Part shown: positions 41,252 through 49,772 of the stretch, in pieces
How the letters are laid out: every line of letters begins with the position of its first letter
Numbering within the stretch: position 1 is the first letter of the stretch
Source: Caldisericota bacterium
GTDB lineage: Bacteria; Caldisericota; JANLFM01
Length of the DNA: 64,000 bases
NCBI GenBank assembly: GCA_024655965.1
Contig: JANLFL010000004.1
Coordinates: forward strand, 1-64,000
Reading direction: 5' to 3'
The notes under the pieces: generated by a model
Database searches by the model: none
The model's input: only the letters and a program-made list of their open reading frames with translations
Told to the model about the DNA's origin: nothing
Made by a program: the position numbers and the translations under genes

Positions 41252-43228
41252 TTAAACCGAAAGGGCTTTTTTGGAGCCTTTTTGAGCGTACATCCGGCTA
41301 TCCGCAATTCTAAGGAGGGTCTCCCCGTCGGTGGCATCCGTGGGGAAAACGGAATATCCTATGGAAGCGCTGATGGGAACTTGAAGGTTGGGCGGGAAAG
41401 CCTCCTCGATTTTTGTATTTAACCTTTGGATGATCTGCTCCGCTTCCGGTGAGTCTGTTGAAGGGAGAATAATCACAAACTCCTCCCCTCCATACCTGAA
41501 AACCACATCCGAGACACGGATGTTTTCCTTCAAAACCTGGGCGAACTTCGCAAGAACCTTGTCCCCCTCCCGGTGGCCGAAGATATCGTTGAATTTCTTG
41601 AAATGGTCAAGGTCCAAGTAAACCAGGGTCAACTTTTGATTGTGCCGCTGAGCGAAAGCCAGCTCCTCCTCAAGCCTGCGGAAGAAATAACGGTAATTGT
41701 AAAGCCCGGTGAGATAGTCGGTAATTGCCATTTCGGATACGGATTTGAACAAGCGAGCATTGTAAAGGGCGCTTGCGGCAAAAGAGGAAAAGATGGTGAT
41801 CAAGCGAAATTCGGAGTCGGAAAACGGGCGGTGTCCAAGCCTGTAAACGGTCATCGCCCCAATGACCTCGTCTTTAATTTTTAAAGGGAGGGAGATCAGG
41901 GATTCTTCTTCAACCGGGGTTCCGTTGACCTGCTTTACGCGGGGGTCGAGTTCCGCTTCGGCGAGATTCACACCAACTCCCTCTTTTGCCACCCAGCCTG
42001 TGATCCCCTCCCCAATTCTAATCTTCATGCTCTTAATCTGATCCTGGTAGGACCCGCTTGCGGCAATGCAACGCATTTCCTGGGAACCCTCAACCTTTTC
42101 AAAAATGAACCCCTCGTCCGCTTCTACGAGCCTCTGGGCGCTATCAAGAATCTTGGAAACAATCTCCTCCATGTCCATTGACCCCATGAGGGCCTGGGCA
42201 ATGTCAAAGAGGGAGGAAAATTCATCGGCCTTCTGTCGAGTTTCATGAAATAACCTGGAATTGGTAATGGCTACTCCACACTGGTTCGCCAGGGATTGGG
42301 CCACCAGGAGCTCCTCAGGAAGGAGTGTTTTCTTGGGGGGAAGGGGAATAACCAAAAATCCAAGGAGCTTTTCCTGGTAAAGGATAGGGAGAAGCCCTGT
42401 GGATGAAATGGAATAACTGGAAAGGAAATCTTGAGGAAATTGATTGAAAATGATCGGTTTCCTCTGCTCCCTCAACTCGGGAAAAGCGGCATTAAAAACT
42501 TCCGAAAGTTTTGCGGAAAGGTGGGAGTACCTGCTTTCCTGAAGTTCGAAGGGGACGAACCTGTTTTCCTCGATCAGGAAAACAAAAACCTCATCCAGGG
42601 AGAGAAGGTCCTTTGCGGAACGGGTTACGGCTCTAACAGCTTCCTCAAGATACAAGGTGGAGTTAATTTGCCGGGAAACGTCAATTAGGGTTTTCATCTG
42701 TTGGAGCCTGCTTCTGTTCTCCTGGGTTTGTCTCTGATTTTCCAAAAACAGGCTAACGATATTTGAGGCAATTGAGAACCAATCGAGCTGGTCTTTATTG
42801 AAGGCGTTTTCCCTCTGGGAGATCACCAAAACGGTTCCAAAACTTCTCCCCTGAAGGGAAAGGGGGGCAATTAAAGCTGATCCTATGGAGGATTTGAAAA
42901 AAGGGAAAATGTTCCCAAGGGGAAGATCCTCCAGGGAGCATTTCTCAAGTATCACAGGTCCTTTGATCTGGGTTAATGATTCCACTTCAGGGTCAGCGGG
43001 ATCAATCCTGGAGGGAAGATGAAAAGCCATTTCCCTGGGGAAAACTTTCAGTTGAAAGGACAAGGTAGGGGGGTCCCAGAGGAGGAGAACGGCTATTGTC
43101 CCCCCAGAAAAGAACAGGGTCTTGCTTAAAAAATTCTCCAGGAAACTTTCCGGGTTTTTGAAAGGGGAATGGATTATCCCGCTTAAATACTCAAAGGTTT
43201 CATTGGATTTAAAGGATCCCATGCTCAA
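41252..43228 (-). CDS. Multi-GAF diguanylate cyclase (GGDEF)
   Basis: DYLTGLYNYRYF, FRYGGEEFVIILP; GAF-like repeats upstream. Confidence 0.9.
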   Translation of the reverse strand: MSMGSFKSNETFEYLSGIIHSPFKNPESFLENFLSKTLFFSGGTIAVLLLWDPPTLSFQLKVFPREMAFHLPSRIDPADPEVESLTQIKGPVILEKCSLEDLPLGNIFPFFKSSIGSALIAPLSLQGRSFGTVLVISQRENAFNKDQLDWFSIASNIVSLFLENQRQTQENRSRLQQMKTLIDVSRQINSTLYLEEAVRAVTRSAKDLLSLDEVFVFLIEENRFVPFELQESRYSHLSAKLSEVFNAAFPELREQRKPIIFNQFPQDFLSSYSISSTGLLPILYQEKLLGFLVIPLPPKKTLLPEELLVAQSLANQCGVAITNSRLFHETRQKADEFSSLFDIAQALMGSMDMEEIVSKILDSAQRLVEADEGFIFEKVEGSQEMRCIAASGSYQDQIKSMKIRIGEGITGWVAKEGVGVNLAEAELDPRVKQVNGTPVEEESLISLPLKIKDEVIGAMTVYRLGHRPFSDSEFRLITIFSSFAASALYNARLFKSVSEMAITDYLTGLYNYRYFFRRLEEELAFAQRHNQKLTLVYLDLDHFKKFNDIFGHREGDKVLAKFAQVLKENIRVSDVVFRYGGEEFVIILPSTDSPEAEQIIQRLNTKIEEAFPPNLQVPISASIGYSVFPTDATDGETLLRIADSRMYAQKGSKKALSV

Positions 43229-44118
43229 AGTTGTTCACCCGTTCCTTCATTTTTATCAATTATAAGCCTTTCCCAGGAAAAAATCCTGATTGATCCTGCT
43301 TCAATAGCTTTTACCCTATCCGGTGAGTCGATTGGGGAAACAAACCTTACCATTCTTCCCAACTCCAGGAGAATCCCCAGGGAAATTAACCACCCCTCAC
43401 CATCAATAAGCCCAACAAGGAGATTACCGTTTCCGTTTGACTTCTCAAAGAATCTTGGCCCGGGGAGAAAGGTGAGCAAGTCGGCCCTTAACTGGTGCTC
43501 CTTTGAGCCTTGAAAGTACTGGGAAAATTTCTTTTCCCGCAGAATGGCCCTCTCTTTGGGGGAAAATTTTCTAACTTGAGGGGGAATGGGATCCCGGAAA
43601 ATTTTGATGTCTTCTCTAAAGGAAAAACGGTTAAGGATTGGCCCCAATTCTGTCCCCCGCTCCCGGGCAATAATCAAATCCGGTTTAAGTATTTCGATCT
43701 TGGTCCTTTTGAGCCAGATTCCCGCAGACCCCTCAACGAGCCCGGTAGTGTCCACCACAATCAGTGAGGCCCCCCTTTTCTCTGCCTCCCTCTTTAGAAT
43801 TGAGGCTGCCGTTAAACAACGCCAGAATGCCCCCTGAGGGGAAAACCTGCCGATGAAATAATGCTTTCTCTCATTTTTATTGAAGAACAAGGTGGCCGTT
43901 GTTGGAGGTCCAAATTCGCTCTGCCCAACATCGAGTTCCAGCACGGCTGTTCTTAGACCAGCCTGGCAACCTTTCCCGTAAATAAACCTCGCAAGAGAGG
44001 TCTTGCCGGTATCCACGCCCCCCAGAAGGAAAACCGTCCCTCCCCTTTTTAGAAGTTCTGGTCCCCATTGCTTCCAGGTGGAAGGCTCTGCGGGGGCAAA
44101 GAGGGTCGACTTATTCAT
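43225..44118 (-). CDS. Clp1/Grc3-like P-loop polynucleotide kinase family protein
   Basis: LLGGVDTGKTSLARFI Walker A; VLELDVGQSEFGPPTTATL Clp1-type motif; start reassigned to ATG 44118. Confidence 0.65.
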   Translation of the reverse strand: MNKSTLFAPAEPSTWKQWGPELLKRGGTVFLLGGVDTGKTSLARFIYGKGCQAGLRTAVLELDVGQSEFGPPTTATLFFNKNERKHYFIGRFSPQGAFWRCLTAASILKREAEKRGASLIVVDTTGLVEGSAGIWLKRTKIEILKPDLIIARERGTELGPILNRFSFREDIKIFRDPIPPQVRKFSPKERAILREKKFSQYFQGSKEHQLRADLLTFLPGPRFFEKSNGNGNLLVGLIDGEGWLISLGILLELGRMVRFVSPIDSPDRVKAIEAGSIRIFSWERLIIDKNEGTGEQL

Positions 44119-44890
44119 TCTCCGGAAAAACCCTCTGAAAATATGCTTCCCAGGGGAGTTCGCCAAGGGACCCCCATTTTGAGGGGGGAAGAAAGGAAAT
44201 AAAACCGCACCACTTCTCGCAAAAGGGAATAGCCTCCAGCCATCTAAGGATGGTTTCCACCTCCCCTTTAATTAGTTCGAGGAATTCAGGCAATTGGAGG
44301 GAACGGGGCGCCACCCCCAAAAGGTGAGAAAAAATGGAATCAAAGTCAAAAATGAGAAAATCTCCCCCGAGCAAACCTTGAATGTTCCTTAAGGAGAAGG
44401 GGTTGTCAATTCCCACCCCAATTTTCAGGTACCTATCGAAGGGAACCCTCCTGGCATTAAGCTCTTCCATGATCTTCATAACCGCCACCTGAACGGCCTT
44501 TAACTCGGTCCCGGCCCTCAAGGAAGGAAGAAGCACCCAGCATTTCCTAAAGTAAGAGGATTGGAGAAAGGCTTTTATTTGGGATTCAAAAAGGAGGGGA
44601 AAATTCTTCCAGAGAGGGAACCCGTTAAAATCCCGGAACTTCTGGAGATCGGTAGCCAGTAAACTTTCCTCCCTTCCCGGGGGGGAAGAGAAATCGAAAA
44701 GGGAAAAAATTAATGGCGCCCAGCTTCCGAGAGATGAACATTCGATGTACATTTTGAACTGCTCTTCCGCTGAAGGAAACGATAAGCGGTTCCGAAATGC
44801 CCACTCGGTCTTAAGGATCACGGGAACCTGTTGGCCCGCGGGCAATTTCCGCAGGGAGAATCCGTCTTCCACCAGCCACCCGGAATCCAT
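44111..44890 (-). CDS. Degenerate PTS EI / PEP-utilising enzyme TIM-barrel-like protein
   Basis: ILKTEWAFRNRLSFPSAEEQFKMY ~ LLRTEFLYMDR..PTEEEQF.AY; KIGVGIDNP ~ EIGVMVETP; DFLIFDFDSIFSHLLGVAPRS ~ [21 protein letters not shown]. Confidence 0.55.
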   Translation of the reverse strand: MDSGWLVEDGFSLRKLPAGQQVPVILKTEWAFRNRLSFPSAEEQFKMYIECSSLGSWAPLIFSLFDFSSPPGREESLLATDLQKFRDFNGFPLWKNFPLLFESQIKAFLQSSYFRKCWVLLPSLRAGTELKAVQVAVMKIMEELNARRVPFDRYLKIGVGIDNPFSLRNIQGLLGGDFLIFDFDSIFSHLLGVAPRSLQLPEFLELIKGEVETILRWLEAIPFCEKWCGFISFLPPSKWGSLGELPWEAYFQRVFPENE

Positions 44891-47607: not shown

Positions 47608-48393
47608 TCAAATTAGAAAAACCACACTATAAAAATATACTAAAGGTGCGGTAAAAAGAAGGGAGTCCAGACGATCCAAAAAACCCCCGTGGCCGGGAAT
47701 GAGTAGGGAGGAATCCTTCTTTTGGGCCTCCCTCTTGAAAATAGATTCAAAAAGGTCCCCTATCAAAGAAAAAAGGCTGACAATTACCCCAAGGGGGATG
47801 ACAGGGAGGAGGGGTTCCCCAAAGATTAAAGCGGCCGCAACGGCTCCAATGATTCCTCCCAAGGGGCTGGAAAGAGTCCCTTCAAGTGTTTTTCCCGGGC
47901 TGATCCGAGGGAATACTTTCCTCTTTCCAAGGTATTTCCCCACGAAAAAAGCTACCGAATCGCTGGCGAACGTGCTGAGAAGGAAGATGGTTAATAAATA
48001 GAAGCCCTTGGGTCCTTCCCGGAGGAGGTAAATGAACCTCAAAAGAAAGCCCAGGTATATGGGGGAGAAGGTGATTTGAGCGGCCTTAATGGACCGATTA
48101 TTTCCTCCTTTAAAAAGGGTAAAAATTGCCCCAATAAGCAGGGAAAGGGCAAGGACAATTTCCAACGATAAACAGATCTCTGGCCTGAGGCTCAAGAGGA
48201 AAAGAAGAAAAATCATGAAAACAGGGAAAAAATCGGACTTTTCGAAGTGAAAAAGGTTCCCAAGTTCCCAGAGGGCAAATCCCCCGAAAACCAGAATTAG
48301 TGACCAGAGAGCCCATCCTCCGAAATACCCCACCAAGAAAATCAAGGGAAGGAGGAGGAAGGCGGAAAGAAACCTCAAGGCCAGGTTACTCAT
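47608..48393 (-). CDS. cdsA: Phosphatidate cytidylyltransferase
   Basis: SDSVAFFVGKYLGKRKVFPRISPGKTLEGTLSS; start likely M at 48393. Confidence 0.93.
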   Translation of the reverse strand: MSNLALRFLSAFLLLPLIFLVGYFGGWALWSLILVFGGFALWELGNLFHFEKSDFFPVFMIFLLFLLSLRPEICLSLEIVLALSLLIGAIFTLFKGGNNRSIKAAQITFSPIYLGFLLRFIYLLREGPKGFYLLTIFLLSTFASDSVAFFVGKYLGKRKVFPRISPGKTLEGTLSSPLGGIIGAVAAALIFGEPLLPVIPLGVIVSLFSLIGDLFESIFKREAQKKDSSLLIPGHGGFLDRLDSLLFTAPLVYFYSVVFLI

Positions 48394-48940
48394 TGATCTT
48401 TCCAAAACGCCTTTCCCTTTTTGAAAAATCTTGAAAAGCCCGGTCCAGTTCCTCAAGGGAAAAATCCCTCCAGCAAACCGGGGAGAAAAACAGTTCGCTG
48501 TAAGCTATCGACCAGGTAAGGCTATCGCCGATGCTCCTTATCCCTCCGGTGATGATCACCAGATCTGGTTCAATCCAACCCAGGTTTTGCATGTAATTTT
48601 TTATCTCCGCTTCGGAAAAGGAAAAATCTGGGTGCTTCCGTAAAATTCCCGCAAGGAACTCCTTTTCGCTGAAATTCAAACCCAGGTTAACAACCGGGGT
48701 TTGGCGAGATGGGGGAATTTCCCCGTCCTTCAAAACCCTCAGGTAAACGGGAATTTCATTAGAAAATGGGGGGAACTCGCCAAAGTATCCGTAAAATAGA
48801 AAACTGGCCTGGTCAAAACCGGATCTGAATGCTTCCTGGGAAAGCAGGGTGATTTTTTTTACGGTTTCCCCAGCTGAAAGACCAAAAAATGAAGAGGAGC
48901 TTTTTTCGCCTTCCCCGATTAAAAAGGCCAGGTGCTTCAT
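48386..48940 (-). CDS. Divergent UppS-like cis-prenyltransferase homologue lacking key catalytic motifs
   Basis: C-terminal EPDLVIITGGIRSIGDSLTWSIAYSELFFSPVCWRDF...SKRERRFGK aligns with UppS; N-terminal DGNGRW replaced (LIGEGEKSS). Confidence 0.8.
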   Translation of the reverse strand: MKHLAFLIGEGEKSSSSFFGLSAGETVKKITLLSQEAFRSGFDQASFLFYGYFGEFPPFSNEIPVYLRVLKDGEIPPSRQTPVVNLGLNFSEKEFLAGILRKHPDFSFSEAEIKNYMQNLGWIEPDLVIITGGIRSIGDSLTWSIAYSELFFSPVCWRDFSLEELDRAFQDFSKRERRFGKINE

Positions 48941-48948
48941 GGAGTGGC

Positions 48949-49215
48949 TTATTCCCCAAAAACCAAGAAAAAAGCATCCTGAGATCGGGGGGGCCTTTTT
49001 TCAGAAAGGTAATTATCGAAACTTAAAATGACTCGAATGCGATTCTCCCCGGTTTTTTTGAGGAAAATCACCCTTGGGTTTCCCAGGGGCTGGGCGGAAG
49101 GGGAAGGCTGGAAAAAGTGCTCCTCAATCTCCAGGCCTCCTTCCTCAAGAAGGGGCTTTACTTCGTTCCACAATTTTCCGCAATAACTGGGGAATTCGAG
49201 GGAGAATTTGTTCAT
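48949..49215 (-). CDS. 88-aa protein of unknown function
   Basis: Start overlaps frr stop; open frame in tight operon. Confidence 0.55.
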   Translation of the reverse strand: MNKFSLEFPSYCGKLWNEVKPLLEEGGLEIEEHFFQPSPSAQPLGNPRVIFLKKTGENRIRVILSFDNYLSEKRPPRSQDAFFLVFGE

Positions 49216-49772
49216 TAAACCTCCATTATGGAGCTTTCTTTCTTCTCCAGGGCAAGATCAACGAGCTCGATATACTTGTCAAGGAGCTTCTGGACTTTCT
49301 CCAGATAGCGGTCTCGGTCATCCTCGGAAATTTTTCCCTGGTCCTTCAGTTCCTTAATGCTCTCGTTCGCTTCCCGGCGATGGTTCCTGAGCTCAACCCT
49401 GCAATCTTCAGCCATTTTCTTCGCCGCTTTGACAAATTCCTTCCTCCGTTCCTCGGTTAAGGGAGGGAAAACCAAGCGAATAATTCCCCGGTCAACTTGG
49501 GGGGTGACCCCGAGATTTGCTTTGAGGATGGCTTTTTCAATCTCCTTGAGGATGGATTGATCCCAGGGCTGGATCACTAGGACCCGGGGCTCTGGAGTGC
49601 TGATCGTGGCTAACTGGTTGATGGGAAGCAGGGAACCGAAATAATTAACGGTGATCTTTTCCAATACCGCAGGGGTTACCTTCCCCGCCCGGATAGTCTT
49701 GAACTCTTCCTGCAAAAAGGAAAGGGCTTTGTTCATTCGTTCTTCGGTCTGTTTCAAAATCTCCTCGAGCAC
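49215..49772 (-). CDS. frr: Ribosome recycling factor
   Basis: RAGKVTPAVLEKITVNYFGSLLPINQLA, PPLTEERRKEFVK. Confidence 0.97.
   Translation of the reverse strand: MLEEILKQTEERMNKALSFLQEEFKTIRAGKVTPAVLEKITVNYFGSLLPINQLATISTPEPRVLVIQPWDQSILKEIEKAILKANLGVTPQVDRGIIRLVFPPLTEERRKEFVKAAKKMAEDCRVELRNHRREANESIKELKDQGKISEDDRDRYLEKVQKLLDKYIELVDLALEKKESSIMEV

Follow-up and report, generated by a model that had tools for sequence, protein, structure and literature searches.

The window (the whole 64,000-nucleotide stretch of DNA that was analysed) carries the gene order rpsB, tsf, pyrH, frr, an 88-aa ORF, a degenerate homologue of undecaprenyl diphosphate synthase (UppS) here called DEG, cdsA, an M50 protease gene and ispG/gcpE (Table 1). 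The flanks reported in an earlier note, frr plus a small ORF on one side and cdsA on the other, are confirmed. The start of cdsA is likely an internal ATG near 48393, as indicated by the sequence and by the orthologue in the related genome G001, which begins at the matching position; the DEG stop is then overlapped by a few bases. Other families of the phylum carry an ordinary uppS at the same place (pyrH-frr-uppS-cdsA or pyrH-frr-uppS-dxr-like), and the DEG locus is therefore the ancestral uppS locus. The 88-aa ORF has no convincing match in 56 other genomes; NCBIfam gives no hit for it and Pfam none that passes its cut-off, and its AlphaFold2 model is uninformative (pLDDT 58). Because it is restricted to this family and keeps its place, it may be part of the same system as DEG. 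Elsewhere in the window, a CLP1-type P-loop polynucleotide kinase domain, here in a bacterium, is encoded at 43225-44166 (minus strand, PF16575, E=8.5e-31); G001 probably has a counterpart (L035 3805-4803). It adjoins the gene of a free-standing 259-aa protein (44111-44890, minus strand) that has only a partial match to the PEP-utilising enzyme C-terminal domain (PF02896, E=4e-8); similar ORFs occur at the same place in the other family genomes.

Table 1. Features of the DEG locus and of the second uppS gene (window positions unless a contig is named)
Feature	Position	Strand	Basis or remark
Degenerate UppS homologue (DEG), proposed NgBR-like accessory subunit	48386..48940	-	ORF, ATG start, 184 aa
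Lost DGNGRWA pyrophosphate/Mg loop, now LIGEGEKSS	DEG residues 7-15, 48896..48922	-	alignment
AYSELFF dimer-interface motif, kept	DEG residues 146-152, 48485..48505	-	E149 corresponds to E. coli Glu213
R-F-G, C-terminal RXG motif, kept	DEG residues 178-180, 48401..48409	-	5/5 DEG proteins
88-aa ORF between frr and DEG	48949..49215	-	five-genome family only; same place in 5/5
frr (ribosome recycling factor), gene marking the canonical place of uppS	49215..49772	-	PF01765, E=6.7e-63
cdsA (phosphatidate cytidylyltransferase)	47608..48456	-	PF01148, E=7.9e-54
Catalytic UppS copy	source genome, contig C33, 167886-168668	-	PF01255 profile positions 2-213

The Pfam family PF01255 (Prenyltransf) covers residues 107-180 of DEG, the C-terminal third of the protein (E=7.9e-15, 55.4 bits, cut-off 27), in keeping with the UppS likeness that the earlier note had seen in the C-terminal part. 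The replacements, the length and the RRFG tail quoted there also agree with the sequence. At the N-terminus, MKHLAFLIGEGEKSS stands in place of the ...IMDGNGRWA of UppS, and the ORF begins at the first beta-strand, leaving DEG without an N-terminal extension. The RTSGE motif has become ITGGI, with loss of its Arg and Glu; the FSTENW block is absent, and the region from GLPR..GH to FSTENW is mostly deleted or unrecognisable. The tail ERRFGKINE (with RRFG) and AYSELFFS are intact. E. coli numbering follows an ungapped alignment of DEG residues 124-181 to E. coli residues 188-245. An AlphaFold2 model computed from a five-sequence alignment has a pLDDT of 80 and a pTM of 0.80, and a Foldseek search with it returns UppS structures as top matches, the best being E. 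coli UPPS (E=2.2e-8, probability 1.00, TM 0.62). By profile and by fold, DEG is a cis-prenyltransferase homologue. The tunnel-helix region (alpha2 and alpha3) is missing from both sequence and model, and residues 180-184, from the RXG glycine to the end, have pLDDT values below 50, as would be expected of a modelled tail without its partner. Having lost the DGNGRW loop and the IPP-site residues Arg194, Arg200 and Ser202, DEG is predicted not to be a catalytically competent undecaprenyl diphosphate synthase.

The source genome (G000; 1.73 Mb, 47 contigs, 98% complete, 5.12% estimated contamination) has just two PF01255 matches in a profile search, spanning positions 2-213 and 146-219 of the 219 profile positions. 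The longer match is a second uppS, for which the earlier note had proposed to look: DGNGRWA, FSTENW and RTSGE are all intact. This catalytic copy ends ...EALRDWSDHYFPLPLRNGK and has no ordinary RRFG tail. It terminates in LPLRNGK, which places an RNG four residues past the expected position of RXG; this offset RNG could be a makeshift RXG, and it occurs in the G000 copy only, neither the sister species nor the other three family members having it. A frameshift as the cause of the missing RXG is ruled out, since no hidden RRFG tail was found in three frames beyond the 3′ end of the catalytic copy in five genomes. The start of the gene overlaps the end of a Glycos_transf_4 gene in G000, and in all five family genomes it overlaps or directly follows such a gene. 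The product of this neighbour is WecA/TagO-like (best NCBIfam ECA_wecA, under the cut-off of that model). A second Glycos_transf_4 gene, taken as MraY, lies on contig C42, and BacA (UppP) is present; given BacA and MraY, a lipid carrier is needed. The genes of DEG and of the catalytic copy are not adjacent and lie on different contigs in G000. On C33 (L033 7125-8940), genes for an ECF-type sigma factor and an anti-sigma-like zf-HC2 protein lie convergent to the catalytic uppS, overlapping its 3′ end, an arrangement that recurs across the family. In trees built with and without the degenerate rows, the catalytic copy clusters, with weak support, among long-branched single sequences from other phyla; an alignment of the C-terminal part has too few columns to tell duplication from horizontal transfer as its origin.

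The distribution of motifs over the two proteins was scored in an alignment of 50 ordinary UppS, five catalytic copies and five DEG proteins, using E. coli numbering; tails were scored by alignment position, with KFG and KYG tails retaining the Gly and a basic residue. Twelve residues that bind FPP or IPP (D26, N28, R30, W31, H43, S71, N74, R77, R194, E198, R200 and S202) are present in 50/50 ordinary sequences and 5/5 catalytic copies and are essentially lost in DEG, where R194 is found in 0/5, R200 in 1/5 and S202 in 1/5, and DGNGRW is absent from all five. Tyr211, Glu213, Arg241 and Gly244 follow the opposite pattern: they are invariant in the ordinary enzymes (50/50) and in DEG (5/5) and missing from every catalytic copy (0/5). 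Before the PDL motif, where 30 columns are at least 90% conserved in ordinary UppS, the catalytic copies keep 26-28 and DEG 5-9; from the interface helix to the C-terminus, DEG keeps 10-14 of the 17 conserved columns and the catalytic copies 5-8. Judged by these columns, the catalytic copy has lost just what DEG keeps, the RXG predicted to act in trans and the interface Glu. DEG in turn, with its catalytic loop gone and its C-terminal RXG kept, has the make-up of a putative accessory subunit, and in 5/5 genomes it co-occurs with an apparently RXG-less catalytic subunit, the G000 copy carrying the offset RNG at its end.

The five genomes analysed from this family of uncultured bacteria (G000-G004) all carry the pair and no third UppS. 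DEG always has frr and the small ORF on one side and cdsA on the other, and the catalytic copy always adjoins a Glycos_transf_4 gene. The relatives include MAGs labelled Caldisericota bacterium A05DMB10 and Coprothermobacterota bacteria from LacPavin samples. In the four other genomes DEG has 56, 37, 40 and 30% identity to the protein of the window, with RRFG and AYSE invariant across all five; since the degenerate form recurs there at the corresponding locus, DEG is not a local sequence error. Relatives that retained DGNGRW here would have spoken for such an error; within the family none does, and outside it the frr-linked uppS is canonical. Each of the two genes forms one clade (support 100/99). 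No complementary pair was detected in 56 other genomes: each has a single ordinary UppS or no detected one, and any further match is a contig-end fragment. Three further phyla, sampled with 39, 151 and 77 genomes, likewise show no complementary pair among the matches listed, which comprise full-length sequences (1-219), a few divergent full-length paralogues and contig-edge fragments. For the G002/G004 pair, in which dS is unsaturated, dN/dS is 0.27 for DEG, 0.19 for the catalytic copy, 0.12 for the small ORF and 0.04 for frr; between G000 and G001, the DEG gene has pN 0.27 and pS 0.73. Within the DEG family, identity rises from 24-48% ahead of the PDL motif to 46-72% beyond it. The DEG gene is under purifying selection and is therefore not decaying.

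DEG is very probably the non-catalytic subunit of a heteromeric cis-prenyltransferase in bacteria, an enzyme that would supply the lipid carrier of the wall. In cis-prenyltransferases the RXG motif acts in trans. DEG would be an NgBR/Nus1-like subunit whose catalytic partner is the second UppS on C33, the one without an RXG tail. The two chains would associate by the face that UppS dimers ordinarily use, and the RRFG tail of DEG would cross over to the catalytic subunit, close the sole active site there and bind the pyrophosphate of IPP. The product would be a polyprenyl carrier, probably C55, serving both peptidoglycan synthesis (MraY) and the WecA/TagO-like transferase encoded beside the catalytic subunit. 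On the simplest reading, an ancestral homodimer gave way to a catalytic and an accessory chain, each retaining the half lost by the other. Of the two readings offered in the earlier note, an accessory subunit of a heteromeric enzyme is strongly supported by the finding of a UppS that has the catalytic motifs and appears to lack RXG and the interface Glu. The other, a decaying gene, is disfavoured by a reading frame that stays open in all five genomes even at 30% identity, by the dN/dS of 0.27 and by the invariant RRFG and AYSE.

Among the accounts in which the two proteins do not form one enzyme (homodimer, decay, contamination), the sole serious alternative is that the catalytic copy is a self-sufficient homodimer without RXG and DEG a separate uppS-derived regulator or scaffold acting outside the active site. 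It is quite unlikely, even though Methanosarcina mazei MM_0014 and its close relatives, homodimers that lack RXG, provide a precedent (PMC8131916), the G000 catalytic copy has its terminal RNG and the two genes lie on separate contigs. A regulator or scaffold would have no reason to keep RXG and the interface Glu invariant in 5/5 proteins while the N-terminal part falls to 24% identity, and the loss of the interface Tyr and Glu from the catalytic copies (0/5 vs 50/50) fits a changed partner. Because MM_0014 is a homodimer without RXG, loss of RXG alone is no proof of partner dependence. That DEG is what is left of a decaying ancestral uppS, superseded by the C33 copy, would suit its ancestral locus, its lost catalytic residues and its faster evolution than frr (0.27 vs 0.04 in G002/G004), but the ORF has stayed intact in five genomes over long divergence, dN/dS is far under 1 and the C-terminal motif is invariant. 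Decay would also leave the loss of RXG in the replacement copy unexplained; it is already mostly refuted and very improbable.

A binning or assembly artefact, with the catalytic copy coming from another organism, could draw on the estimated contamination of the MAG; its probability is close to nil, since five genomes, each assembled separately, show the same pair with the same neighbours, and each of the two genes is a single, well-supported clade. Contamination or misbinning is ruled out by this recurrence. The question of product is a different one, compatible with the mechanism proposed above. The heteromer might make a different carrier, such as a dolichol-like lipid or a longer polyprenol, used only by the WecA/TagO-like pathway. 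Eukaryotic heteromers yield long chains (PMC7573591, PMC7839719) and the catalytic gene adjoins a Glycos_transf_4 gene; however, MraY has no other UppS as supplier, and the archaeal heteromer gives C45-50 (PMC8131916). Such a product is unlikely, with a small chance of being right.

UppS is essential and an antibiotic target, and mutations in human DHDDS/NgBR cause disease. The pair described here is likely the first bacterial heteromeric cis-prenyltransferase, an obligate split that is confined to one Caldisericota-affiliated family and reached by convergence the very residues (RXG, interface Glu) on which DHDDS/NgBR relies, possibly with a third small protein encoded next to the accessory subunit. 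If so, evolution has repeated the DHDDS/NgBR architecture independently in bacteria, and the pair shows which residues must be split, RXG and the interface Glu going to the helper and DGNGRW to the catalyst. It would also provide small subunits without a membrane anchor for studying how a helper activates a catalyst, and a system in which to ask whether the split is tied to product length. A search of mainly open-access literature for a bacterial heteromeric cis-prenyltransferase found no case. Heteromeric enzymes are described in eukaryotes (PMC7839719) and in one archaeon (PMC8131916); as far as the literature searched shows, a bacterial case would be new.

Cis-prenyltransferases have been divided into homodimers, found in bacteria and plants, and heteromers, found in eukaryotes (PMC7839719). 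In the human enzyme, the C-terminus of NgBR crosses the interface and its RXG builds, in trans, the two DHDDS substrate sites S1 and S2, the tunnel of NgBR is collapsed, and kcat of the complex is about 400-fold that of the DHDDS homodimer (PMC7573591). The PDB sequence of DHDDS (WQTSHSCLVF...FQMNHSVLQK) has lost the Tyr, the Glu and the RXG, and that of NgBR (WHIRLTEIVS...ACEQRLGK) keeps the Glu and RLG. The bacterial pair resembles human DHDDS/NgBR and yeast Rer2 or Srt1/Nus1 in that one subunit has the catalytic Asp motif but neither RXG nor the interface Glu, and the other lacks the catalytic loop and has the interface Glu and a C-terminal RXG (the RXG as in the human protein). Yeast Nus1 and some other eukaryotic accessory subunits lack the RXG arginine. 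Like NgBR and Nus1, DEG resembles other cis-prenyltransferases solely in its C-terminal part; unlike NgBR, it is bacterial and has no N-terminal membrane domain, and unlike in DHDDS there is no C-terminal helix-turn-helix extension.

The archaeal enzyme MM_0618/MM_1083 of Methanosarcina mazei, a heteromer that serves a glycosyl carrier lipid (Emi et al., 2019, as cited by PMC8131916), is likewise a prokaryotic two-protein cis-prenyltransferase, likened here by description alone; its product is C45-50 and not a long chain. MM_0014 of the same archaeon shares with the catalytic copy the absence of RXG but differs in being a homodimer without an accessory subunit, its loss of RXG apparently unmatched by a partner that keeps it (PMC8131916). 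With homodimeric UppS (E. coli, Enterococcus, Helicobacter) DEG shares the family, the dimer motif, the RXG tail and the frr-uppS-cdsA locus; in contrast to those enzymes, the motifs are divided over two proteins and not all on one. The DEG family profile matches bacterial UppS with E=7e-20 vs E of 0.1-1 for NgBR. Orthology of DEG with NgBR/Nus1 is ruled out by these best matches and by the absence of the N-terminal membrane domain. Because DEG is nearer to bacterial UppS than to NgBR, the likeness looks like convergence rather than shared descent, and the split enzyme seems to have arisen independently of the eukaryotic one.
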